The notes beneath the pieces are model-generated. The model searched no databases, was not told the origin of the DNA, and worked only from the letters and a program-made list of their open reading frames with translations. Shown one piece after another: positions 5,757-49,216 of a stretch of DNA of 64,000 nucleotides. The DNA is from Cloeon dipterum (Eukaryota > Arthropoda > Insecta > Ephemeroptera > Baetidae). How positions within the stretch are numbered: position 1 is the stretch's first letter; every line of letters starts with the position of its first letter. Both the position numbers and the translations under genes were made by a program. Where the stretch lies: positions 18,600,001 through 18,664,000 of the forward strand of contig NC_088788.1 in the NCBI RefSeq assembly GCF_949628265.1. The letters run 5' to 3'.

Positions 5757-8700
5757 TCATTTCTTGGTTTTTCGCTTGGTAGCTTGGATTTGAGAGCATG
5801 AATTACTTGACTCTTTTTGTTCTGAAACATGTGACACTTCCATAAGTTTCTGCACGAGGTCATCTCTCCCGTCCAGCTTGGCGTGAGTCTTCATGTGCTT
5901 GGAAAGGAACAGAGCCCTCCCATAGACCACGTTGCAGATGACGCACTGGAAAAGTTCTCTGTTCTTGTCCAGGTGAAGTTTCCTTATGTGGCAAATGGCA
6001 GCATGTCTCGTCGGGAATGTGCGTCCGCAGTCATCGCATTTGAAGAGCTGCTCGTGGGACCCAATGTGTGCGACCAGGGCCGCTCTCGTCTTGAATGCCT
6101 TTGGGCAGTAAGTGCAAAGGTACGTCCTCTCATCGCTGTGTTTGCTTCTCATGTGGTTCCTCATACTGCTGTTTGACTTGAAAGCCAAGCCGCATTCGGA
6201 ACATGGGTATGGCCGCTCGTCAGTGTGCGTCCGCATGTGCAGAACGAGCATGTAAGCCAGTCGGAATGACTTTGGGCATAATGTGCATTGGTGATTTTTA
6301 ATGCCCTTGTGGATGAGCTCGTGTTTGTGCCGGTCACCAGCGCGCCTAAAGGTCTTGCTGCAGAAGGTACATTTGAGGTGTCTCGCCCCTTCCGACAGTG
6401 AGAGGTGCGATTGGTGATGAGAGCTAAGCGATTTCACGGTGTCGAAGACGTTCAAGCACAACGGACATTGGAACGTGAGGTCACCTTCAGCATTTTTGTG
6501 CTCTGCCTTGACGTGCATGGCCAGGTTGGAGGTAGAGCAAAACATCTTGCTGCACCCACTGCACCGGAAGAACTTGCCCACGCCTCTCCTATGAATGGTT
6601 TCGTGCACTTCCTTCATATCGAGGTTCACGTTCTCTTCGCACGATTCGCAGAAGTAGAGATCCAATGACGTCGACACTGACTCGTTCATTTGGGCTTCGA
6701 TGTGATTCAAAGATTGGCAGTGTACTCTCAACGCCTCTTTCTCCAAGAAGTATCTGCAATGATTAAAGAAAGCAGTGGTAAAAAATTGTAAAAGGGTGAA
6801 CAACGTGTATAATAAAGGTCGCCGGATTTGACAAGTCACCATGAATCAAGGTAATTTCCGTATGTTTAACTCTTTCTGATTTAACAAACTAGAAAATGTG
6901 TGTAAAATTAATTATTCAACATAGCCAAATGACTTAGGATAAGATTTATTTTCGTAAAATATAATAACGTGAAGGGAACGAGTTTGCAAAATTTATTGAA
7001 ATCTAAATCAGACACCACTTTCAAGAAATCATGGCAGTTTAAATTTTTTTAAAGTCTAATGAATCAAACCTTGGCAAATTTTCATCCTTTATCAAACACT
7101 AATGAAAGGTGGCTAAAAATACCATAATTATCGGGTTAAAGATTAATTATCCTTGTCAGCACAAATGTTCTGAAATTATTCAACATTAGCCGTTATTGGA
7201 AAATGTTCTCACTTAATCTACAGAGGTTTTTACTTTTGTCTTCAATGTTTTGATACTTTTAAGCTACATATTATTCATTTCAGGGTCCAAATTATAAATT
7301 TTAACTATTAAATTTGATAATCTTGATACATACTGCGTGCAAAAGTTGCACTTGAGAAGCTCTGGAAGTTCAGGATGCTTTTCAGCCACATGCTGCAGCA
7401 TTTCTTGCTCAGTGGAGCACCGCAAACGACACTGCACGCAAGAAAACTTGGAATGGATCCCTACGTGCCTCTGGAGATTGGCCACTGTGGAGCACTCCTT
7501 GCCACAAATGTCGCAGTTTGTTTCCTGGGTTTCGATTCCTTTTTTCTTGTGATTTTGTACATGCCTGTCAAATTCTTTCTTCTTGGCAAACTGTTTCTGG
7601 CAGATGGTGCACGTCAACGGCTCAATGTATTCATAGCCCTTCATGTGGCCCATAGCGACCGCATGGACCTCGGCAGTTATTTTCGATTTAAATTTCTTGT
7701 CACAGACGTTGCATTTAGGGACCGTCTTTTTCTTAACAACTGGTACTTCTTCCTCAAAGAGCACCGCATCGCCGTTTTTCTTGTGTATGTTCTGGTGCGT
7801 CCGTAGATCTCCCTTGCGCAAAAAACGTTTCTTACAATAAATGCAGTGGGAAATAGCTTTGCCCATGACAAGATGCGGGGCGTGATTCTTGGCAACCGCA
7901 TGGATGAGTAACGATTTGCTGCTCTGATAACACTTCCCACAATCAGGACAGGTGTGTCCGCCCTTGACAGTAATTGCCAAATCGTGTTTGGTCCTCAGGT
8001 GATTGACAAGTCTACCTCGAGAAACAAGTTTCTTGAGACAGTGTTCGCATTTAAAAATCTTCAAGCCACTCTTGTGCAATTTGTTGTGTAGGGATACGTC
8101 TTTGATGTCTTCTTTGCATATCTTGCAGTGTGACAAGCAAACATCAGACTCTGTAAATTAAATAAAAATAATTTAAGCATATATTTAGATTATTAGGAAT
8201 GAGGTTACCATCAGGTGTTTCGTTTAGGGCTTTCTCCACATCGGTGTGTGCATTGGCGAAGTGCTTTCCCATGCTTGATATAGTGAGCTCCTTTGCCTCA
8301 CAAAAGGCGCAATCAATCTTTGTAGAAGAGATTTTGATAATCTTTTTCTCCTCTTTGACTGAAGCGTCTGGGATGGGGTCCTTCATTTCAGTAATAAGCA
8401 CAACCACTTCTGGAATTTCTTCAGCAACATTTTTCTCTTCATGGTTGTGACCTGAGATTTCAATATGTCTCTTAAACGATTCTTCGCTTAAAAAGGCTGC
8501 TCCGCAGGGGTCGCAGTAGATGATTGGAACTCCTTTATCATGAATTATCTCATGGAGCGGAATCAAGGAATGGCAGATGTACTTCTTGCAAACAGAACAT
8601 GATGCCGTCTCAGCGAGGGGGTCAGTATCTTCCATTTGTACATGCAAGTTTTCCTCCAACATGTGGACTTCTAGTTGACTCAACTTTGAGCATCTGTGAG

Positions 8701-32261: not shown

Positions 32262-34289
<2,028 letters not shown>

Positions 34290-34540: not shown

Positions 34541-34549
34541 TTTTTTGTT
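34541..34549. repeat. Target-site duplication, left copy
   Basis: TTTTTTGTT here matches TTTTTTGTT at 49208-49216 exactly. Nine base pairs is the usual duplication length of Mutator-like elements. The T-rich composition weakens chance arguments, but both copies lie directly at the ends of the inverted repeats. Confidence 0.75.
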
Positions 34550-34590
34550 GGAAATAGATATATATACAACAAAGTTGTATATACAACAAT

Positions 34591-34790
34591 GTATATCCTA
34601 TATATACAACAATGTTGTATACCTACAACAACGGTATATCCTATATATACAACAATGTTGTATACCTACAACAACGGTATATCCTATATATACAACAATT
34701 GTTGTATACCTACAACAACGGTATATCCTATATATACAACAATTGTTGTATACCTACAACAACGGTATGTCCTATACCTACAACAATAGC
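34591..34790 (+). repeat. Subterminal 43-44-bp palindromic repeats (left)
   Basis: GTATATCC recurs at 34591, 34634, 34677, 34721 and (as GTATGTCC) 34765. Each unit contains ACAACAATTGTTGT or ACAACAATGTTGT and then CCTACAACAACG. The self-complementary centres and their subterminal place suggest transposase-binding sites, by analogy with other MULEs. Confidence 0.88.
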
Positions 34791-34965
34791 AATCTGGCAA
34801 CATCGCAGAATGGGCGGCAACGACAAGCACTGAAAGGCTCGTGGACGACACCGACTGCCGGCGCCGGCTCACGGTCGTCGCCGCCATCTTGCCAAGCGGA
34901 GCGCGGACCGGAGCGGAACTGTGAAAATTCCGGAAAACGAAGCCACGAGCACCAGAAAACAGGAA

Positions 34966-35147
34966 ATGCTAGTGGTAAGCGAACAAAGAAAGCGGTCGCC
35001 AACTTTGCAAATCACACAGGAAGATTCGCCGTATTGTTCACAGGGACAAACGACCTGGGGACGACCCTGCGCGTCCACGTCTGGACGGTGCCGATTCCCG
35101 CGTGGCATGGACACGACCCGAGGAAGGAAGGATTTGGCCTTGTTGAG
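34966..35147 (+). other. Possible first coding exon in the left inverted repeat
   Basis: An ATG at 34966 opens 60 codons plus two bases (MLVVSEQRKRSPTLQITQED ... RGRKDLALL) ending at a GTGAGT donor at 35148. The following 57-bp intron (35148-35204) and 115-bp unit exon (35205-35319) keep the frame open. Its 3' part is related to the end of each repeat-unit exon. A nearly identical copy lies inverted in the right repeat. No known domain; whether it is expressed is unknown. Confidence 0.4.
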
Positions 35148-36235
35148 GTGAGTTTTAGCAGTGAAATTAGCACTGTGGGCTAATAATAAACCTGCCTTGT
35201 CTAGGTTGAGCAGCAGGCCCAGCAAATGTCGTCCGCAGTGGCGACGAAATGCAAAGCACGATACCTGGATGGTGCCGATTTTTGTTCGGTCGAGGAAGGA
35301 AGGGTTAGGCCTTGTTGAGGTGAGATTTAGCAGTGAAATTAGCACTGTGGGCTAATAATAAACCTGCCTTGTCTAGGTTGAGCAGCAGGCCCAGCAAATG
35401 TCGTCCGCAGTGGCGACGAAATGCAAAACAGGACACCTGGATGGTGCCGATTTTTGTTCGGTCGAGGAAGGAAGATTTTTGTGCGGTCGAGGAAGGAAGG
35501 GTTAGGCCTTGTTGAGGTGAGTTTTAGCAGTGAAATTAGCACTGTGGGCTAATAATAAACCTGCCTTGTCTAGGTTGAGCAGCAGGCCCAGCAAATGTCG
35601 TCCGCAGTGGCGACGAAATGCAAAACAGGACACCTGGACGGTGCCGATTTTTGTTCGGTCGAGGAAGGAAGGGTTAGGCCTTGTTGAGGTGAGATTTAGC
35701 GGTGAAATTAGCACTGTGGGCTAATAATAAACCTGCCTTGTCTAGGTTGAGCAGCAGGCCCAGCAAATGTCGTCCGCAGTGGCGTTCAAATGCAAAACAG
35801 GACACCTGGACGGTGCAGATTTTTGTGCGGTCGAGGAAGGAAGGATTTGGCCTTGTTGAGGTGAGTATTTTAGCAGTGAAATTAGCACTGTGGGCTAATA
35901 ATAAACCTGCCTTGTCTAGGTTGAGCAGCAGGCCCAGCAAATGTCGTCCGCAGTGGCGTTCAAATGCAAAACAGGACACCTGGACGGTGCAGATTTTTGT
36001 GCGGTCGAGGAAGGAAGGATTTGGACTTGTTGAGGTGAGTATTTTAGCAGTGAAATTAGCACTGTGGGCTAATAATAAACCTGCCTTGTCTAGGTTGAGC
36101 AGCAGGCCCAGCAAATGTCGTCCGCAGTGGCGTTCAAATGCAAAACATGACACCTGGACGGTGCAGATTTTTGTTCGGTCGAGGAAGGAAGGGTTAGGCC
36201 TTGTTGAGGTGAGATTTAGCAGTGAAATTAGCAAT
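35148..36235 (+). repeat. Left array of 172-174-bp units
   Basis: GTGAAATTAG recurs at 35161, 35333, 35530, 35702, 35876, 36050 and 36222, spacing 172, 197, 172, 174, 174 and 172. The 197-bp unit has a 25-bp internal duplication. Each unit contains an AG acceptor (CCTTGTCTAG), a 115-bp block and a GTGAG donor. Units of 174 bp are 58 codons, so long unspliced frames run through them on both strands; I do not call these genes. Confidence 0.95.
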
Positions 36236-37535
36236 TCATTTATTAAGGAAATTTATATATAAGGTCAAATTCAAGTACATTAGAATTTTGGTAATATATC
36301 ACGCAAGACGTGGGAAAGGAGTGTTTGATAGGAGTCTTGTGTACTTACTTGTTGATGTTACGAACACACAAAAGATGAGGAGATAGTTTGTTTGGAGAAA
36401 TTTTCGGCACTGCATGTGTGAGTGCCTTCGTCAGCTCGCGTAGGTAGAATGAGATGAGAGCGGTGATGATGTAGGAGTACACACGTTATGGTCAGGGTTG
36501 GTGGAGGGGGGAAGGGTAGTTGGTGGAGGTGGTTGTGTGATATATTGCTTGATCTTAAAATTTCTATTTTTTTACTTTTTATTTACATGGTTAAGTCTTG
36601 CTCTGAATTTATTTAAATGTATCTATTTATGCCAGGGACGGTTTGAGATTGGAAATCGTAAATAAAGGCCTGTTCTAATCTACGTAGGTCGCCGGGGGTT
36701 GATTTTTTTGGGAGTGATGTAATTATTTTTACTGTGAAACATTTTTCTAATTCTCTTTTATTGTGACAGAGCGCATGTTCAGCTACCGGAACATCTGCTT
36801 CACGCCGTACCGTTTGTCTGTGGCCATTCATTCGTGATCTCAGGGTATTTATTGTTTTGCCAATATAATGGGCGTCGCAAAATTTGCATTGAAGGAAGCA
36901 AACTAATTTTTCAGTTGTGAAGGTGTTATGGCCTGAAATAAGGTAATTTTTGCCTGTGTTTGGGGCTGTCACAGACTTTGCTGGTTTGTGGATTTGGCAT
37001 GTTTTACACGGCGGGCCTCTTGTGGCTTGGGTTTTGAATTGTTTGCAAGGGTATGAGCCTTGTGGGCCTTTTGGTGGCGCCGGGTTTAGATTTTCCGTTG
37101 TGGGTTTTTTGCAATAATGTTTGCTAAATTGGCGCTCCTTGAGAATGCGAGAGTCGCTGGCTCTTTAAAGATATCTTTTGTGACTTTTGACGAAGTAAGG
37201 ATGTTGGAGGCTAAATTTATTACTTTGCGCATTTTTTGTAAGCTGGGTTGATAAGGGAGTACTAGCGGAGGTATGGTATTTTCCCTATTATTTTTAGATT
37301 TTTTGTGATATATCGTTCTTTTAATTTGCTTTTTAATTAATGACTCGTCATAACCTTGTTTTTTGAAAGCATCTGAGATCCTTGTTTTATATTTTTCAAA
37401 TCCTTCTTCTGTCGTGCATATTCTTTTTCCTTCCTTTACCAAAATTCTAATGTATTTGAATTTGACCTTATATATCAATTTCCTTAATATATGAATTTAT
37501 ATTTCCAAAATGGATAATATTTTCATGAAAAATAT
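36233..37535 (-). mobile_element. Penelope-like element, 5'-truncated fragment
   Basis: The minus-strand coding remnant ends in a GIY-YIG endonuclease domain: a CxxC pair (CKTC, then CKFCDAHYIGKTINTLRSRM) and the downstream HNKRELEKCFTVKII are typical of Penelope-like elements. The upstream part is the region between reverse transcriptase and endonuclease; the reverse transcriptase itself is missing. The two ends (36235-36296 and 37438-37495) are inverted copies of each other. It is inserted into a 172-bp unit of the MULE array, which resumes at about 37541. It is broken (truncated, with about one further break). Confidence 0.8.
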
Positions 37536-37540
37536 TGCAA

Positions 37541-37617
37541 TAAGCACTGGGCTAATAATAAACCTGCCTTGTCTAGGTTGAGCAGCAGGCCAGGTGAATG
37601 CCGTCCGCAGTGGCGAT
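37541..37617 (+). repeat. Partial array unit beyond the Penelope-like insert
   Basis: CACTGGGCTAATAATAAACC and the following CCTTGTCTAGGTTGAGCAGC match the 172-bp unit, with a small deletion before the GTCCGCAGTGGCG block. This shows that the insert split the array. After 37620 the sequence is AT-rich, with a short inverted repeat ACCATGGATAT / ATATCCATGGT (37637-37692). Confidence 0.85.
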
Positions 37618-38246
37618 TAAGATTCAGTGCAAGTAACCATGGATATGGAGGGAGCTGTCATAATCTCCTTGGACTTGATTGGATATCCATGGTAATTAAA
37701 ATTTCAGAGTTGCATTGACAGCAGCAATTAAAAGTATTGGTATATGGAAGCATTTATAATGCAATTTAATTAACATTGTTTCCATTAATAAATATTGAGG
37801 ATTTTTTAAAACATTTCCGTAATATGCGATATTAATGGAAGTGAATATAATTTCTATCAATAATATGCGACTGAATGGCAATGAGAGTGTGACCTTCAAA
37901 GACACAAGAGTAACTGGTAGAACTGCGATGTTAAGAATTTGCATTTAATCATCATAGTCAAAAATTAATTCACATTTTATTTGGAAAAGGATTTTGTTTA
38001 AAATAAATTGTAGATCTGCTTGTTTTATGAATGAAAACTAATGTTCGCGGCGAGTATCTACCAGTATTTTTAAATTTTTAAGAATTAAACGCTGAGTGTT
38101 AATGAATGGAAATTTTATTAAATTTTGCTTTTATTGACAAGTATTTGTAATAAATAATTGTTTACAATCAAATGTGAACCTATTGAACTGACACACATGA
38201 ACAGAAATTCATATTGTTTTACATGTTCACAACTTGCTCTCTAATG
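37618..38246. other. Non-coding transposon interior
   Basis: AT-rich sequence between the left array and the transposase stop codon; it should hold the transposase 3' UTR. No further gene is seen. Confidence 0.5.
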
Positions 38247-41200
38247 TCAATCATTTACTTGCGAATCTTCACAAGTTGAACTAGCACTGTCTGAGTCATT
38301 TAGGCCAAACTCTTTGATTGGCGTCTGCCTGATAGTGACTGTTGCACTCAAATTTTTGTCACCACATAGACCACATTTCCAGTTGGCAATTTCCTTGAAT
38401 GATAAATTCAGGTCACCCTCAATTTCTGCTCTAGGGTGTCCAATACACCTTGGATGTAGCCAATTTTCACAAACAGGACACTGCATTGTGCGTTTGTCAA
38501 ACGATTGGGGCATTTTGCAAATGCAGTTGAGGGGGACAGTAATGACTTCTCGGACAGAAGTTGTGTTCTTGGGACCAGGCTTTGCCTTCGAAGGGAAAGC
38601 AATCAGTTTGTCAGTCACAAGTAAATAGGCCAAATGGCGCTTCATCAAATTTGTTACAAAATGCTTGTTGGGATCAACATGGCCATACATAGCAATCTCT
38701 GTTGCATTTGCAATAGCAAACAGTCCACAATTGTTAGCATCCTTCTTTTGATATTGACAGACCATCTTGTTAATTTTCAACTCATTTAAGTCACAATCTT
38801 TGGCGATATGAGCAAACTGAATTTCTGTAGAATCTGCAATTGGCCTATTTCGCTTTGAATCGTAGTAGAAAAATTCCTTTCCATCAAACCTAACGGTAAT
38901 CCAATGCGCAAGGGTGTGCAAAATCTGCACGTATTCTTTTTTAAGACAAGCTTGGTAACAGTCTACTTGCAATTGCACCAGTGCAGGTGACTGAAGTCCT
39001 TGATATTTTTCTTCTTTGTCCAGCTTCTCAATAAACATGGCCACAAAGTCATCAGGCACCTCAATGTTGTTGTCGAAAAATTCTTCAATCAGTTTCACAC
39101 TAAAAGGTGTTTTTTCCATGAGTAGCTCCTTCAGTTTTTCTATAATATTAAGAAATTTTGCAAATTTCATTAACGTAACTCATTTGATCATTATATATGC
39201 TTCATAATATAATTGCAAATTGTAATTTTTTTACAATATACCATCATCATTTCCAGCTGGATTCTTGCTCTGCGCGTGCTTCTTCAGCTTGTCCCGGTGC
39301 TCGTTACTTGTCCCTTTTGGTCGACCACGGACCTTTGGTTTTAGTGGAAAACCAATCTTCTGCTGAGAAGTGATGTTTCTCAAAAACTCTGATGCTGGAA
39401 GAAGTGAGTTATAATTAGTATGCTCATAATTTATTAATCATGATTTTTGTACCTGAAGTAATTCTGATTGTATCAAATCCAGGCTCAGTTGCAATATCTC
39501 TGCTCTTACTTGCCTCATTTCTGCCTGCATTGTTCTCTGAAATCGAATACATTGTTTTGGTGAAAAATTTACATTTGTCTTACACACATACCACCTTCTG
39601 ATTGCTTGCTGTCCAAGCCAGAATTGATTCCAGTGCTGAGAGCTGAAATCTCAGCCTGGCTTATCTGTTGTAAACCATACTCGCTGATTTCATCTGAACG
39701 CAGAAAAAAGAAAAATTAATAATTTCATACTTTACAATCATCTCAGTACCACTCAGTTTGCTCTGCTCCTGCCTCTCTCTCTGAGAAAGAGCAATGTCTT
39801 CTATTTGTGAAATTTGTCTCAGCGCCTCGTCATCGAGAGCTACGGGAGATAGTTTTTATCAACATTATACAAGATATTGTTGCTGTAAACTAAAAATACC
39901 ATCATCCTGTTCAACAGCATCAACCTCTGCTTTCTCACTTTTGGTAACGCTTGTTGTTGCATTTATCATTTCATCAGATTCATCTTGTAACATTGATTGT
40001 TAGTGGATAAAATACTCTTAGGGAACGGAGTTTTTACCTATTGTAAGATCAATTTCTATCACTTTTTTAGGCGTGCTGCTAATTAGTGGTGGTCCAGCTT
40101 TGGCCTCTTTCACATCATCGCTCTTCTCATAAACCTCGACTTCCCCAGAGCTATCTTTCTCATTCTCTAAATCCTTGCCAGCGTCTTGACCCCTAGAGCC
40201 AAATTCCTCAATTGCAGATTCTTCTTCATGAGCCACTGCAATTTCCACCGAGCCATCTTTATCCTCCTCGAAATCCTTGCCTGCCTCTTGCCCAGCAGAT
40301 TCAACTTCTGACACTTCAACCAGCGCCAATCCGTCTTCCGCAGAGCCAATTTCCCGACCCTGTGACTCCTCAGCTTGCACAGAATAGTTTGCCTGTGCCT
40401 CAACATTATTTCCATCATCTTCGCAAGAGACAGAGCAGACTTCTTCAACGTCAAAAACTCCTACGTCTTCCACTGGACGCAACACATTCGCATTTCTGCC
40501 AGCTATAAATGTGAATTAATGTAAATTTCTAGTACAAATCATATTATTATGTAAAATTACAATTTTTTCCAGCTACAAAGAAAGCTCCTTCAGTGTCAAT
40601 TAATTGCTTAATCTGCTGCAGGTTCAATAGACTATCGTCAAATTGCTTTGTGCCAAGGTGTGATGCAGAATCAGCAATTTGCTTGCAGATGGCCAGAGCT
40701 CTGTTGTATTTTTGTTCTCGGCTCTGTGCTTTGGTAGCCCTTCTCGGAATTTGCACTAGCTGACTCTGAAATACATTTTAATTAAAAATACTAAACCAAA
40801 GTTCAATATTGTACCACATACCTCATCATTTGTTTCAGAAGGAGGCAGCTGCTGCTCACAAGTTTGGTATTGAATGGTCCAGCGCATTGGGATTTCCACA
40901 GCATCGATCATGGGAAGCCCAATTTCCTTCCTCAGAGCCATGATGTGGTAGCAAGGTAATTTAATGCCCTTATAGAAAGGGCATTGACAGTTTAGCTCTG
41001 TAGTTTTGTAAGTAGTGAAGTATTCCCTCTTGCACAAAGGCACATATTTTTCTTGCTTTTCGAGCAGAGTGATGCAGTACTCGGTATAATCTTTGAGAGC
41101 TTTTCGTGCCTCCGAGACCACTGCTCCCTGTTGTGGCCTGTATGTGCTAACCTTTGTTGTGTAGCAGTGCTTCTTGTATTCAAGGCTTACGGTTTTGTCA

Positions 41201-43391
41201 TATTGGAGCATGATGAGCTTTTTGATAGTAAACACTAGGGATCCATTCCGTTTAAGAACCATGGATAAGGCTTTATTGTGCGATTCACAATGATTTGTCG
41301 TCCGGATTCCGAAGTTCTCTGACATGGACCTGCCAAAAGCAGTCCACATTTCTTTGCAACTGTGCCAATTCTTGTCATAGTAGGCCCTGAACTTCTGCTT
41401 GCTATCCGGAATCAGTTGGCACAGTTTGTTGTAGAGTTCCATGTATACAGCTTCTGTTCGTGCTTCGAACATTAGTTTCTCGACAATGGCCTGAATTTCT
41501 TCTTTGACTTCTGGTGGTGCTGCTGTTCTAGCTTCATTTCGCAAGTGCTTGCTGCTATGGAACAGACAGTAGTCAACTTGAGCATGTGGGAAAACAGCTT
41601 GAATGGCTGCGAATTCTGACATGTCCTTATCGATAAAGACAGTCTTAAGCTCCCCAGTGTAATTCTTGTGTGCTTCTTGCAGTGCTTGCAGGGCAGATGT
41701 CACTGTTGAAGCCCTCTCGTCAGCCAAAACACTATAACCAACCACTCTCCCTGCTCTATTTCCATCGACCACCATGAAGCATGTGATTGGTAACCGATAT
41801 GCATTTTTGTTGTAGGTTGAATCAAACAGGAGCAGCTCTGGAAATTTTGCGTAATTCTTCTTCATCTCTGAGGTTGCGATGAAAAGACATGAGAAGTTGC
41901 CCTCCGGACCAGTGATGATTGTGTATGATCCTAATTACAAACATAATATGCAATGGTAAGCTCAATTTAGCTGACATTTTCATAAACACTGGATACCTTC
42001 AGAGTCCTTTTCAAACAAATCCCTCATAGTTTCTGCTGCAAGCATCAATTCCCTCTCATGTGGCTCAAAATTTGCATATTTTTCGGTTTCTTCCCTCTTC
42101 TTCCTTTGTCTGTGATAAAAAGATGAATATAAACCTGTTTCAAGTAAATTCTAAATTTGTTTATTTTTTTTCAGGCAATCTATTGGCATGATATGGTTCA
42201 GGACTTGGGGTCTAAAGGATTGAGAAAGCCTGGTGTCAGATAAGTGAAACATAACAAGTTGATAAATGTGTACTTTGTGAGCTCCTATTTTTTCAGATTC
42301 CGGATGGTGGATCTCCATTGGCAAAAAAATAAGCTGGTATGCGAATGTCATAAATAATATTCAAACCCTCTGAAACGAGAACTAAAGGTGCATGGAGACA
42401 AGATAATACCTAATGAAATCAAAATGTGCTGTCATCGAGAGTTCACTACTTGAGAAACTCGATTTTAATCATATAACCATCTTTAGAATATTTACATGTG
42501 AAAGTATACCATTTTATAATCAATAGAAAATTTTGTAGCCAGATTTTTATGTGTTATATTGATATATTACTTCTCATTGTCCAGATCCTTGGGTAGGACT
42601 GCTTTCCCCGTCTCCTTCATGATAACCTCTCTTATCTTGGTTGGATTCACTCCAAGGTCGTCAAGCTGCTGCAGACGCTCCTTCTCTGTGTTGTTCAATC
42701 TACGCTGCTTAGGGTATTGTGCAAAATCAGCCGGACATGGTTTGTGCACCTTTTCATGTACGTCTGTGGTCACGTGACAGTCGTAGATGTATAGCATTTC
42801 ATTACGAGTGCCCACCTTGAAATAGGCACCACAGCCAAGTTTGTAGGATCTGAAAAATTATTGTTCCTTATAACAATGTAGCTAATGATATGCAATATTG
42901 AAAGAAAAAATTTGGATAATATGTATTGCATACAAAAATCAAAATAATATGTGCTTAGCATTAAGGATATGTGAAGTTTTTGTATTAATGTATTACAAAT
43001 AATCACAATTTTCAAATTAAGGGCACAGTGTAGTGCAAATTATTCTCATGTTTCCAATTGCTCAAAATCCCTCATAACTGAATGCACATGTTGGAAAATA
43101 TGTAATGTATATTTACTTCTGATTGGGGCGCTGCCCTGTCGAACGACCATCAACGGGATCTCCATAATGGATACATGCATATTTGGCAGATCTAATGACC
43201 AATTTGTTCTTCTTTGTCTCCAATTTGGCCCTGGCCGCTGCATCAACCACCTTGTCAGAGATTTTTATGTAGTTGCTGCTTAGGCATGTATACACAATGA
43301 AGGTTTCTTGTTCCAATGCCTTAATTGCCTCTGAAAGATCACTAAAACTTTTGAAGGTCTTGCCATTTGTGATTGACAGTGTTTGTGCCAT
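38247..43391 (-). CDS. MULE transposase with fused Ulp1-type protease and PHD finger
   Basis: Twelve exons: 43391-43117, 42849-42571, 42109-41997, 41930-40822, 40765-40561, 40502-40038, 39983-39900, 39839-39750, 39693-39592, 39536-39453, 39394-39242, 39139-38247. Every junction has GT-AG and matching phase; the 1283-codon frame has no interruption. Residues about 65-150 hold Cys/His pairs (CIHYG, LGCGAYF, YDCHVTTDVH) like FLYWCH/FAR1 DNA-binding regions. The DDE core has Asp about 259 (LLLFDSTYNKN), Asp about 323 (TVFIDKDMSEF), the C..H pair CLFH, and Glu about 438 (NHCESHNKAL). A SWIM finger (CQCPFYKGIKLPCYHI) is near 537. An acidic linker (about 660-850) and an AT-hook-like RGRPKG follow. 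Then a C48/Ulp1 protease has His about 1065 (AHWITV), Asp about 1080, Gln and Cys about 1124 (NNCGLFAIANATE). The C-terminus is a PHD finger (about 1192-1245). Confidence 0.9.
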
Positions 43392-44495
43392 TTTACAAAA
43401 CCGCTTGAATCACAGATCACATACAGACTAAAGAGCAGGAGCACAAGCAAAGAGTACCCAGAGCTGCAGATCTAATTGAATTTGAGCAGTGTTGAAACAT
43501 GTTCTGTTTGCCTGCTGTTCCCCCTCTTACACTCTCAAAGTTCCATTCCCTGATTGCAAGTGAAGATGCAATAATAATACTGTGCTGTCACCTCTTTTTG
43601 TTTGGAGAATGATGTTTATGTATTTGTAGCCAATCTAGCTGCCGCAGATTCACAAAAAAATTATTGTAAAAAATTGTATTAATAAAACACTGATTGTGTT
43701 TTCCCATCGACACCAGAACATTTATTATGAATTTCATAAACATTGGAGTTCTCTGCTACTTACATGTACAGTCGATTCCATGATGCTAAGATTTACAGTG
43801 CAAGCGATATACATCTTGACGTATGAAATCTTAAATACGGGAATGGATATAATCACAACCTCTGGCGGCTTTACCTCCTGAATTTCCTGGCTAAACCAGG
43901 ACCCCCAGCCAACAAAGGGGTGGTCCGAACCGAGGGATTAATAAAATTTAGTGGGTACAAAATTATGACTTCCAATCAGGGCCCCCAGCAATGAAAATCC
44001 ACTTGTGTACTCTACAAACACGTCTGAGTCAAGATATCGAAGTGGTCAAAAATGAGTAATAAGTATTTATATTCCATTTCTCGGACTATGGGTAGTTCAA
44101 AATGTGTATAAGATCTTGGGTGTGATGAAAAATTCAAAGCAGGAATTCATCAGCGGGAGATAAAATTTATTGATAATGGTTCCAATGCAAGTTATAAAAT
44201 TTGACTGCCTGTGTAACAATAATGCAAATCATAGTAGGTACCGTTAAATTTAAGAGAATTGAATTACAGGTTTGCTTATGTAACAATAAATTCCAGGTAT
44301 AGCAAAATATGTAATGCTACACTGAAAAACTTTTAAGAGCTGTCGTAGCTCTTAAAAATACTTGTCACAGGACGAAATCTCGTGCGGTCGTAGCTCTGTT
44401 TAAGGCCAATGCTCGCTCTTCAGAACAGCAGCCGCAGCTCGTCCTAAGTGCTGTAACAGCAGGAACAGAATAATTTTTGCAAATTCCAATTTCAC
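43392..44495. other. Upstream region of the transposase gene
   Basis: About 1.1 kb with no supported gene. It should carry the transposase promoter. A palindrome TTTTAAGAGC...GCTCTTAAAA lies at 44328-44357. Confidence 0.45.
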
Positions 44496-44856
44496 TGCTT
44501 CTTTCTACACATTCCTCAAATTGATGGTTCAAGTGATTGACAGTCATCCGTGAAAAATGTTTACTCACCACTCATTTTAGCATCAATCTAATGGATCACC
44601 CAATCCAAAATCCACCTCTAATTCAACCAACGTCCAGTGCACCCATCATCCATAATATAATAAAAATTTTTACAGTAAACTAGGTACAATTGAATTCACG
44701 GTTACTGTAATTTAATTATATTTTCTCCAAAAAACTGACATACCCCCCCTTTACCAATATTTTGGATTGGGAGATCATAAGATTCATGCTAAAATGAATG
44801 GCGAATAAACATTTGCAAGGATGACTGTCAATTTGAGGTATGTGTAGAAAGAAGCA
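44496..44856. repeat. Foldback element, about 360 bp
   Basis: The left arm starts TGCTTCTTTCTACACAT and the right arm, reverse-complemented, starts TGCTTCTTTCTACACAT. Both continue through TTGACAGTCATCC, CATTTTAGCAT and CCCAATCCAAAAT, over roughly 110-125 bp per arm. The centre is AT-rich. A single unit of the 172-bp repeat follows directly on its right side. No coding capacity. Confidence 0.7.
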
Positions 44857-45031
44857 TTATTAGCCCACAGTGCTAATTTCACTGCTAAAACTCACCTCAA
44901 CAAGGCCTAACCCTTCCTTCCTCGACCGCACAAAAATCGGCACCGTCCAGGTGTCCTGTTTTGCATTTGAACGCCACTGCGGACGACATTTGCTGGGCCT
45001 GCTGCTCAACCTAGACAAGGCAGGTTTTAAT
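44857..45031 (-). repeat. Isolated unit of the 172-bp repeat
   Basis: One complete unit in the right-array orientation (ATTATTAGCCCACAGTGCTA through CTAGACAAGGCAGG), separated from the main right array by the TA-flanked element and unrelated sequence. Confidence 0.92.
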
Positions 45032-45102
45032 GCGCTAAAAGTTATGGTACATATATTTGCATGTATACATTCTCTGTTTGCATTTTGATAATATTTTACA
45101 TA

Positions 45103-46538
45103 TGGCGGAGACACAATTCTGGGCCATTCCACACTTCTGGGCCACTTCCATTTAAATAGCATTGTTTTCATTGTTGATGGGTCCCCACGTGATTTTAAAT
45201 TGAACCAATTGGTTCAATTTTGGTCATTTGGTTCAAAGATTGCACTTTTTTGAACCAATTGATGCAATTATCCTATTAATAGAACCAATTTTGGTTCAAA
45301 ATCAAATCAATGAACCAAGTTGGTTCAATTTTTTGTTTTAATGAAGCAACATACAGAAGTTTTGGTTCAATTTTTTAAAATAAAGAATCAAATCATGTCT
45401 GTAACAGAGTTTTGGTTCTTTATTTCTAAAAAATAGAAGCAAAGTTTGTTTAAGAGTATCTATTGGTTCAATAATTTGCAACAAAGAATCAAAACTTCAA
45501 GCATTCGTATGTATTTTTGACTCAGAATAATGTAAATATTTTGGTTAATATTTAGGAAAAAACGAATAAAAACTTTGGATTTTTTCCATATGAACATCTT
45601 AAAAATTATGTTATGATCCGATTAAATTTTAACTCCTTTCATTAATTAAACAATCACTATGCACAAGAAAACAGGGAATTTGGTTCATATTTTTTAGGTT
45701 TCAATATAGAATAACATTTTAAGTATTGATGGGGTGGAATGTATAATTTTGCTACATTGCTGTTTTCATTCAGAGAACCAAAAACTTCATATGTTTCAGT
45801 ACCACAAAATTAAAAATTTCTCAATTTTTTTCAGTTTATTAACTCATTATTTGCCAACATCAAATGGTGTGTGCAATCATTTTTTAATTTCTTGCAAATA
45901 ACCAAATGCCAAAAAACAAACCTTTTATAAAAATTTGAAAATTTTATTGGTACATAACCCTGGAAATCTTTATTAATAAGTTTTTGTAGGTATATTTAAT
46001 GTTGCAACTGGCCCAATGAGAGTAGAATATAAGTTAAATCAGGACGTTTTCTCACATAATGGCTGATTAGTCACTAAAAGCAGGCGCATCTTCCACGGTT
46101 TTTTCCTATTTGATATATATACGTCAAATTTTTAAAACATATACCGTTACGCGAGTGGTGCAGAGGGTAGAGGATGTGCTCACAAATCACAAGGTTCGAA
46201 TCCAGGTAAGAACTAATTAAGTTATGTGTTTTCAGCCAATTAAATTACAAGACTTAATCAGTCTATTCATCCTTAGGTGCGAAAAGTGCAAATTGCATCT
46301 AAATTTAAAATATATTTAAAATTTTGAAAATTTATTCATTAAACCAATTGGTTCTTTATTTGAAATCATTGCATTAAGGATTTGGTTCAATTTTTGTCCC
46401 CCTTTGAACCAAAAAACTTTGAACCAATTGGTTCAATTTAAAATCACGTGGGTCACAACAATAAAATCCATAAAATCAATGCTTTTCTTATGGAAGTGGC
46501 CCAGAAGTGTGGACTGGCCCAGAATTGTGTCTCCGCCA
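45103..46538. mobile_element. TA-flanked non-autonomous element, 1.4 kb, inside the MULE
   Basis: The ends TGGCGGAGACACAATTCTGG and its inverted partner (46519-46538) are flanked by TA on both sides (45101-45102, 46539-46540). Inverted similarity continues about 110 bp inward through CACACTTCTGGGCCACTTCC to CACGTGATTTTAAATTGAAC. The interior is rich in GGTTCAAT/ATTGAACC words and has no coding frame. A TA duplication with long inverted ends suggests a non-autonomous Tc1/mariner-like element, though the superfamily is not certain. Confidence 0.72.
46146..46210 (+). other. tRNA-like segment (possible SINE head)
   Basis: An A-box-like TGGTGCAGAGG and a perfect B box GGTTCGAATCC lie about 36 bp apart, the spacing of a tRNA gene. 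The acceptor stem does not pair well and a clear anticodon loop cannot be drawn, so this is more likely the head of a tRNA-derived SINE or a degraded tRNA gene than a functional tRNA. It sits inside the TA-flanked element. Confidence 0.45.
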
Positions 46539-46639
46539 TACATATTATATGCAATCTGTTTATGTATGATTATTATGAATAGAAAATCAAGTTCCACCAA
46601 AGAAAATCGAGAAATAATGGCCCAAAATACAGATCCAAA

Positions 46640-49207
46640 TCAGCCCAGTGCTAATTTCACTGTTAAAACTCACCTCAACAAGACCTAACCCTTCCTTCCT
46701 CGACCGCACAAAAATCGGCACCGTCCAGGTGTCCTGTTTTGCATTTGAACGCCACTGCGGACGACATTTGCTGGGCCTGCTGCTCAACCTAGACAAGGCA
46801 GGTTTATTATTAGCCTACAGTGCTAATTTCACTGCTAAATCTCACCTCAACAAGGCCTAACCCTTCCTTCCTCGACTGAACAAAAATCGGCACCATCCAG
46901 GTGTCCTGTTTTGCATTTGAACGCCACTGCGGACGACATTTGCTGGGCCTGCTGCTCAACCTAGACAAGGCAGGTTTATTATTAGCCCACAGTGCTAATT
47001 TCACTGCTAAAATACTCACCTCAACAAGGCCTAACCCTTCCTTCCTCGACCGCACAAAAATCTGCACCGTCCAGGTGTCATGTTTTGCATTTGAACGCCA
47101 CTGCGGACGACATTTGCTGGGCCTGCTGCTCAACCTAGACAAGGCAGGTTTATTATTAGCCCACAGTGCTAATTTCACTGCTAAAATACTCACCTCAACA
47201 AGGCCTAACCCTTCCTTCCTCGACCGCACAAAAATCTGCACCGTCCAGGTGTCATGTTTTGCATTTGAACGCCACTGCGGACGACATTTGCTGGGCCTGC
47301 TGCTCAACCTAGACAAGGCAGGTTTATTATTAGCCCACAGTGCTAATTTCACTGCTAAAATACTCACCTCAACAAGGCCTAACCCTTCCTTCCTCGACCG
47401 CACAAAAATCTTCCTTCCTCGACCGAACAAAAATCGGCACCATCCAGGTGTCCTGTTTTGCATTTCGTCGCCACTGCGGACGACATTTGCTGGGCCTGCT
47501 GCTCAACCTAGACAAGGCAGGTTTATTATTAGCCCACAGTGCTAATTTCACTGCTAAAATACTCACCTCAACAAGGCCAAATCCTTCCTTCCTCGACCGC
47601 ACAAAAATCTGCACCGTCCAGGTGTCCTGTTTTGCATTTGAACGCCACTGCGGACGACATTTGCTGGGCCTGCTGCTCAACCTAGACAAGGCAGGTTTAT
47701 TATTAGCCCACAGTGCTAATTTCACCGCTAAATCTCACCTCAACAAGGCCTAACCCTTCCTTCCTCGACCGAACAAAAATCGGCACCGTCCAGGTGTCCT
47801 GTTTTGCATTTCGTCGCCACTGCGGACGACATTTGCTGGGCCTGCTGCTCAACCTAGACAAGGCAGGTTTATTATTAGCCTACAGTGCTAATTTCACTGC
47901 TAAATCTCACCTCAACAAGGCCTAACCCTTCCTTCCTCGACTGAACAAAAATCGGCACCATCCAGGTGTCCTGTTTTGCATTTGAACGCCACTGCGGACG
48001 ACATTTGCTGGGCCTGCTGCTCAACCTAGACAAGGCAGGTTTATTATTAGCCCACAGTGCTAATTTCACTGCTAAAATACTCACCTCAACAAGGCCTAAC
48101 CCTTCCTTCCTCGACCGCACAAAAATCTGCACCGTCCAGGTGTCCTGTTTTGCATTTGAACGCCACTGCGGACGACATTTGCTGGGCCTGCTGCTCAACC
48201 TAGACAAGGCAGGTTTATTATTAGCCCACAGTGCTAATTTCACTGCTAAAATACTCACCTCAACAAGGCCTAACCCTTCCTTCCTCGACCGCACAAAAAT
48301 CTGCACCGTCCAGGTGTCCTGTTTTGCATTTGAACGCCACTGCGGACGACATTTGCTGGGCCTGCTGCTCAACCTAGACAAGGCAGGTTTATTATTAGCC
48401 CACAGTGCTAATTTCACTGCTAAATCTCACCTCAACAAGGCCTAACCCTTCCTTCCTCGACCGAACAAAAATCGGCACCGTCCAGGTGTCCTGTTTTGCA
48501 TTTCGTCGCCACTGCGGACGACATTTGCTGGGCCTGCTGCTCAACCTAGACAAGGCAGGTTTATTATTAGCCCACAGTGCTAATTTCACTGCTAAAACTC
48601 ACCTCAACAAGGCCAAATCCTTCCTTCCTCGGGTCGTGTCCATGCCACGCGGGAATCGGCACCGTCCAGACTTGGACGCGCAGGGTCGTCCCCAGGTCGT
48701 TTGTCCCTGTGAACAATACGGCGAATCTTCCTGTGTGATTTGCAAAGTTGGCGACCGCTTTCTTTGTTCGCTTACCACTAGCATTTCCTGTTTTCTGGTG
48801 CTCGTGGCTTCGTTTTCCGGAATTTTCACAGTTCCGCTCCGGTCCGCGCTCCGCTCTCCGCTTGGCAAGATGGCGGCGACGACCGTGAGCCGGCGCCGGC
48901 AGTCGGTGTCGTCCACGGGCTTTTCAGTGCTTGTCGTTGCCGCCCATTCTGCGATGTTGCCAGATTGCTATTGTTGTAGGTATAGGACATACCGTTGTTG
49001 TAGGTATACAACAATTGTTGTATATATAGGATATACCGTTGTTGTAGGTATACAACAATTGTTGTATATATAGGATATACCGTTGTTGTAGGTATACAAC
49101 ATTGTTGTATATATAGGATATACCGTTGTTGTAGGTATACAACATTGTTGTATATATAGGTTATTCATTGTTGTATATACAACTTTGTTGTATATATATC
49201 TATACCC
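46640..49207 (-). repeat. Right terminal inverted repeat of the MULE
   Basis: A mirror of the left repeat: about 11.5 units of the 172-174-bp repeat (46640-48605), the GC-rich unique segment (48606-48970), then about four 43-44-bp palindromic units and the tip (48970-49207). It is longer than the left copy only because the array has about twice as many units. One unit (about 47370-47540) carries the same 25-bp duplication seen in the left array. Confidence 0.92.
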
Positions 49208-49216
49208 TTTTTTGTT
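49208..49216. repeat. Target-site duplication, right copy
   Basis: TTTTTTGTT, identical to 34541-34549, directly after the right inverted-repeat tip. Confidence 0.75.

Follow-up and report, generated by a model that had tools for sequence, protein, structure and literature searches.

The window analysed here (64,000 nucleotides, C3:18600001-18664000, where C3 is contig NC_088788.1 of the insect Cloeon dipterum, Ephemeroptera) contains a 14,658-bp element at positions 34550-49207. It is very likely a Mutator-like DNA transposon of the Rehavkus/Foldback type that has recently been mobile and is probably autonomous. The element lies between two perfect 9-bp target site duplications (TSDs; TTTTTTGTT at 34541-34549 and 49208-49216), ends in long, layered terminal inverted repeats (TIRs, below also called arms), and encodes a predicted transposase of the Mutator-like element (MULE) kind, whose main exon is open. 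Searching the genome with the DNA of the tips gave five tip-to-tip copies of 13.0-17.1 kb, and the gene-bearing core (36234-44856 in the window) has one orientation relative to the tips in two copies and the opposite one in three. All copy counts come from one assembly (190 Mb, 10 contigs); coordinates given with no contig name are those of the window.

Boundaries, arms and genomic copies

The left arm of the window copy (named W) occupies 34550-36233 (1,684 bp) and the right arm 46646-49207 (2,562 bp). All 1,684 bases of the left arm align with the right arm at 98.63% identity (score 3173, as compared to at most 234 for 20 random window segments). From the outside inward, the left arm consists of a tip of the GGAAATAG type (34550-34603), four ~43-bp palindromic units (34604-34776), a GC-rich part called U (34790-35118, a 329-bp allele that among the five copies is otherwise found only in the copy C3c) and a 174-bp tandem array (35119-36233), all on the plus strand. 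The right arm repeats this order on the minus strand, with a tip of the GGGTATAG type (49154-49207), four ~43-bp palindromic units (48981-49153), a 336-bp U (48632-48967) and the array (46646-48631). The ~174-bp array has 6 whole units on the left and 11 on the right, plus partial units, and the left palindromic tip has a single-stranded DNA fold with z = -8.08 against 200 shuffles. An earlier note on this DNA had proposed a complete element with matching tips, a 9-bp flanking duplication and inverted repeats of at least 1.7 and 2.6 kb in three such layers, and each of these points holds with the boundaries exactly as given above.

The right arm of W runs further inward (44856-46639), through a 1.6-kb layer named B (45029-46639, plus strand, 1,611 bp) and one more array unit that adjoins the core (44856-45027, minus strand). 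This B layer has no left partner in W; left partners are found in the copies C1a and C3a. Inside it (45101-46540), inverted repeats of ~138 bp (83% identity) lie near both ends of the layer, perhaps the remains of an older nested element. At least 104 matches to the 174-bp unit were found in the genome among those listed, all inside the five copies.

Besides W, there are three copies on contig C3, namely C3a (at 2.30 Mb; 13,024 bp), C3b (34.58 Mb; 13,681 bp) and C3c (35.13 Mb, reverse; 14,482 bp), and one on contig C1, C1a (23.18 Mb; 17,093 bp). All four share the boundaries of W. The five TSDs are perfect and mutually different (TTTTTTGTT, GTTAAAATA, AACCAAAAC, TTCAATCAA and TATTTATAA), and every copy has the GGAAATAG tip at one end and the GGGTATAG tip at the other. 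A genome search with the tips (up to 3 mismatches) found 12 sites, i.e., two per copy and two in a mini copy of ~0.2 kb (C1:27341265-27341470), which is made up entirely of tip units, at 86-88% identity to the tips, and is read as an older miniature derivative; a script test found no perfect TSD for it, the best being 8/9 with shifted ends. Any two cores of the five copies are separated by 4 to 18 substitutions (7,323-8,625 sites compared; 0.05-0.25%), so their movement was probably recent. Together with the TSDs, the open exons and the MULE domain match described below, this agrees with the earlier description of a whole, recent, Mutator-like element.

C1a is the fullest copy, with arms of 4,236 and 4,234 bp (99.23% identity) that read inward as tip, ~43-bp palindromic units, GC-rich part, ~174-bp array, B (1,611 bp) and one more unit before the core. 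W is thus a shorter form of the element, and C1a has a fourth layer (B) in both arms. The left B layer is missing in W, C3b and C3c; the right B layer, along with 1,302 bp of the core, is missing in C3a. Since the array and the inner unit are direct repeats flanking B, the layer may have been lost by recombination.

Two further families related to these five copies (family 1) were found in the same genome. Family 2 has a copy of 11,626 bp at C2:35601001-35612626 (TSD AACTAAAAT) and one of 11,758 bp at C4:8055860-8067617 (TSD AAACAAAAA), both with arms of ~2.5-2.6 kb that are 99.92% identical. Family 3 has a copy of 20,140 bp at C3:5456429-5476568 (TSD TTAATGTAA). All eight delimited copies across the three families therefore have a 9-bp TSD, where for families 2 and 3 the scans also gave other 9-mer pairs and the pair at matching tips was chosen; a further relative at C5:0.97 Mb carries stops and, its boundaries not being set, stays outside this count. 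Terminal tandem units of ~43-44 bp are followed by longer arrays in all three families, with array periods of 174 bp (family 1), 173 bp (family 2) and 178 bp (family 3, which also has periods of 52, 126 and 319 bp). In the three left arms examined, ATGGCGG is found 304-332 bp from the tip (on the opposite strand in family 1), and TGACGTCA is found in families 2 and 3 only. We note that the arm sequences of the three families differ while the repeat lengths are alike (43-44 bp, then 173-178 bp; the W repeats are at 34559-34787); lengths of 173-178 bp are close to the nucleosome repeat length. The sister families, like the fuller 17-kb form and the core inversions discussed below, were beyond what the earlier note could see.

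The left tip of W (34550) and the first start codon of a SelO reading frame (33726-34289, minus strand) are 261 bp apart, and given this spacing the element may lie in the promoter or 5' region of SelO. A zf-AD gene points to an insect as the host, zf-AD being restricted to arthropods. An RPL13 exon speaks against Drosophila, with 94 bits for the Drosophila entries (6xu6, 4v6w) and up to 114 bits for many other entries.

Coding content of the core

The predicted transposase gene is on the minus strand and has four exons with GT/AG sites, which join into an open frame: exon 1 (43117-43391; ZSWIM3_N-like, below the Pfam cut-off), exon 2 (42571-42849; resembling families 2 and 3), exon 3 (41997-42109) and exon 4 (40822-41930; MULE DDE domain and SWIM zinc finger). 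Three solutions were obtained, differing only in the start of exon 3. The earlier note had described an unbroken transposase gene; the main exon is indeed open, but the gene as a whole is split by predicted introns. The MULE DDE domain (PF10551) is matched at E=2.4e-16 (60.4 bits, cut-off 27.6), and the SWIM match is above its Pfam cut-off as well. We assign the D, D and E residues on the usual pattern of MULE domains. The best Pfam match of the transposase (40756-43391, minus strand) is the ZSWIM1-3 RNaseH-like domain, stronger than the MULE match, which suggests that ZSWIM1/3 genes descended from this kind of MULE. With the exons joined, the ZSWIM1-3 match spans the junction of exons 3 and 4, its E-value falling from 4.5e-22 to 8.2e-27, and the ZSWIM3_N match spans exons 1 and 2, still below the cut-off. 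Joined exons 1-4 also have a weak FAR1 match (E=0.026, below the cut-off) and no FLYWCH match at E<=10. When viral contigs were scanned once for relatives of the main exon, 4 stretches fitted a pattern, and none of them was confirmed.

Downstream of the transposase on the same strand are an acidic reading frame (40018-40485), possibly part of one long gene, and an open reading frame (ORF) with a PHD finger (38247-39170). In all five copies, neither the main MULE exon nor the PHD exon contains a stop. The gene may extend past exon 4, as suggested by a splice donor (GTATGT at 40821) and by another similar frame. It is plausible that exon 4 and the PHD exon belong to one gene, in which the PHD finger would be fused to the transposase, as one would expect from the description of Rehavkus. 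A PHD finger is encoded downstream of the transposase and on its strand in all three families, with the same order in families 2 and 3, and a profile built from the three families matched PHD fingers in PDB at E down to 3.1e-9. Two points count against the fused PHD finger in W: the link between the exons is unproven, and the window protein alone is just under the Pfam cut-off (22.6 vs 24 bits), those of families 2 and 3 being above it.

The same ORF has weak features of an Ulp1-like (C48-type) peptidase. H, D, Q and C residues precede the PHD finger, presumably with the spacing seen in C48 peptidases. The peptidase matches in PDB have E of 0.23-0.46 (7fiu 0.23, SENP8 0.36) and rank under three helical-repeat matches, which are probably due to chance, and family 3 does not have the cysteine; both facts speak against a peptidase, at which the ORF hints only weakly. 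A single-sequence structure prediction of the PHD protein was uninformative (mean pLDDT 32.2).

At the other end of the core, a segment between 62-bp inverted repeats (36234-37497, minus strand; 95% identity) contains a GIY-YIG frame (Pfam match below the cut-off) and an overlapping frame. We take the segment to be a 3' piece of a Penelope-like element; its protein search matches were found only in copies of this element (four out of the five). A Penelope-type GIY-YIG gene as working cargo was rejected, because its two overlapping frames cannot be read as a single ORF, the piece is in 4/5 copies only, and tblastx of the core against three relatives is blank there.

Placement among known elements

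The DDE transposase domain and the 9-bp target duplication, a length that most MULEs share, are those of a MULE. Among MULEs, Rehavkus elements are described with a 9-bp TSD, a PHD finger and a minisatellite (PMC6446971; this and the other papers are cited from the portions of their text available to us), and the element in the window has the TSD, a minisatellite at the terminal inverted repeat and a MULE-like transposase, and encodes a PHD finger downstream that may be fused to the transposase. A close published design is Rehavkus-1_TC of Tribolium castaneum (PMC10218199), whose inverted termini contain tandem arrays of 164-bp units (5 and 8 for the most part), as compared to the 174-bp arrays in both arms here, and which is 9.5 kb long, as compared to 13.0-17.1 kb. 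Our element further differs from Rehavkus in having cores in both orientations and in its arms, which reach 4.2 kb and include a palindromic, a GC-rich and a B layer.

Rehavkus and NOF are treated as one group by RepeatMasker. Drosophila Foldback/FB-NOF elements have long composite TIRs with internal tandem repeats, a 9-bp TSD and a MULE-like protein in the loop. The long composite inverted repeats with tandem subrepeats found here, the TSD and the MULE-like protein are like those of FB-NOF, which, in contrast, is smaller and has shorter repeat units; the two are set apart here by description only.

Tm1 of Meloidogyne (PMC3169594) is a MULE with composite tandem-repeat TIRs, and it shares with our element the MULE transposase, asymmetric terminal motifs and 9-bp TSDs. 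It differs in the size of its transposase-bearing copy (2.6 kb), its 13-15 bp repeat units and its FLYWCH domain, and the text available mentions no PHD finger. Outside MULEs, Galileo (P superfamily) and Tetris of Drosophila have a similar Foldback form, with tandem repeats of ~210-220 bp, TIRs of up to ~1.3 and 1.7 kb, and rearranged and chimeric forms; unlike our element, Galileo has a P-type transposase and 7-bp bounding sequences, and no transposase was found for Tetris in the accounts available. The earlier note knew of no described MULE with this design, a claim that is not supported, given Rehavkus-1_TC, Rehavkus in general and Tm1. The basic design is already known from Rehavkus, Foldback and Tm1; the size, the layering and the two core orientations are new within the literature searched. 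The MULE TIRs analysed in PMC6446971 are 14-500 bp long (up to 613 for Phantom in its table), and an arthropod MULE survey from 2026 (PMC13359780) gives TIRs of up to 1,193 bp and elements of up to 10.0 kb. The arms and lengths here are above both ranges, as far as the available text of these papers goes, and we make no claim that they are the longest known.

It is possible, though unlikely, that the element is a MULE of another group (e.g. Phantom) that is not close to Rehavkus/NOF and in which long arms grew independently. Tm1, a Phantom-type MULE with composite tandem-repeat TIRs and asymmetric tips in the text available, indicates that the design arises outside Rehavkus, and the best Pfam match (ZSWIM1-3) and the FAR1 match could also point away from it. 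In contrast, a PHD finger is encoded in all three families and the array unit is close in size to that of Rehavkus-1_TC. The N-terminal FLYWCH domain of Phantom is not found in joined exons 1-4, although its absence alone does not exclude Phantom, since Phantom also includes elements with SWIM or without any zinc finger (PMC6446971).

We therefore place the element as a very large variant of the Rehavkus/Foldback-type MULEs. Three things weigh against this placement and the mobility ascribed to the element. Its arms (1.7-4.2 kb) are outside the 26-400 bp tabulated for Rehavkus TIRs in PMC6446971, whose text has one minisatellite before the 3' TIR; this range may count only part of an arm, in view of the 164-bp units (mostly 5 and 8) in the termini of Rehavkus-1_TC itself. 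The placement relies on descriptions of Rehavkus and NOF and not on their sequences. Mobility, excision and expression are predictions from sequence.

Orientation of the core and proposed mechanism

Taking the GGAAATAG tip as the reference, the core has plus orientation in W and C1a and minus orientation in C3a, C3b and C3c, with the junctions inside array units. The closest core pairs are W/C3c (4 substitutions in 8,623 sites) and C1a/C3b (4 in 8,624), and the other eight comparisons give 10-18. Markers in the arms agree with both pairs: only W and C3c have the 329-bp U allele, in their GGAAATAG arms, and only C1a and C3b have a variant first palindromic unit, likewise in their GGAAATAG arms. 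As each closest pair contains both orientations, at least two inversions are implied. The C2 and C4 copies of family 2, whose interiors run in the same direction on their contigs with the two tips exchanged, hint at a similar core inversion. No description of a core inversion in a MULE was found in the literature searched, with searches aimed at internal inversion among them; older Foldback papers may contain one.

It is rather improbable that misassembly across the near-identical inverted arms has produced the opposite orientations. The arms of C1a (4.2 kb, 99.23% identical) and of the C2 and C4 copies (99.92%) are indeed of a kind that invites such errors. However, W, C3b and C3c have unequal arms, just one of which includes a B layer; long reads would resolve such a structure, and 10 contigs for 190 Mb would imply long reads. 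Against true inversions it also has to be said that the orientation calls in families 1 and 2 come from one assembly, from assembled sequence and not from reads, and that a tiny tip conversion could mimic the inversion in family 2, because the ends there differ consistently at only two tip positions. As for the copies themselves, it is scarcely credible that they spread by segmental duplication and not by transposition, for although 4/5 are on contig C3, the flanking bases differ from copy to copy and every copy has a 9-bp TSD of its own.

For a transposon that moves and inverts in this manner, we propose the following mechanism. The encoded DDE transposase would bind sites in the tips and palindromic units, excise the element and insert it through cuts staggered by 9 bp. 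With kilobases of near-identical inverted repeat in the arms, made of ~174-bp units, the two arms could be kept alike, and the core flipped between them, by homologous recombination or by template switching in the course of gap repair. Segments between direct units could be deleted in the same way, giving shorter forms such as W. Going further, we tentatively suggest, with somewhat less than even confidence, that this is an isomerising transposon, in which arms of kilobase length serve as an inversion module within the element and the core flips about as often as copies arise, so that both isomers are found in one genome; the flip would be a regular by-product of gap-repair copying, in at least two families. 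If this is true, flipping perhaps explains why such arms persist, as it would keep both ends alike and functional.

For these two long-armed foldback elements, the accounts available link the longest arms to the lack of a transposase: Tetris has none that could be found, and in D. mojavensis it is missing from the Galileo copies with the longest arms. Here, in contrast, five near-identical long-armed copies have open coding exons. According to the text available, the arthropod MULE survey (PMC13359780) added 5 kb to both sides of its hits and took Rehavkus as an outgroup, and may for these reasons have missed such elements. With the Cloeon dipterum copies, one could ask directly if movement is favoured or impeded by giant arms, and if transposition is accompanied by flips of the core.

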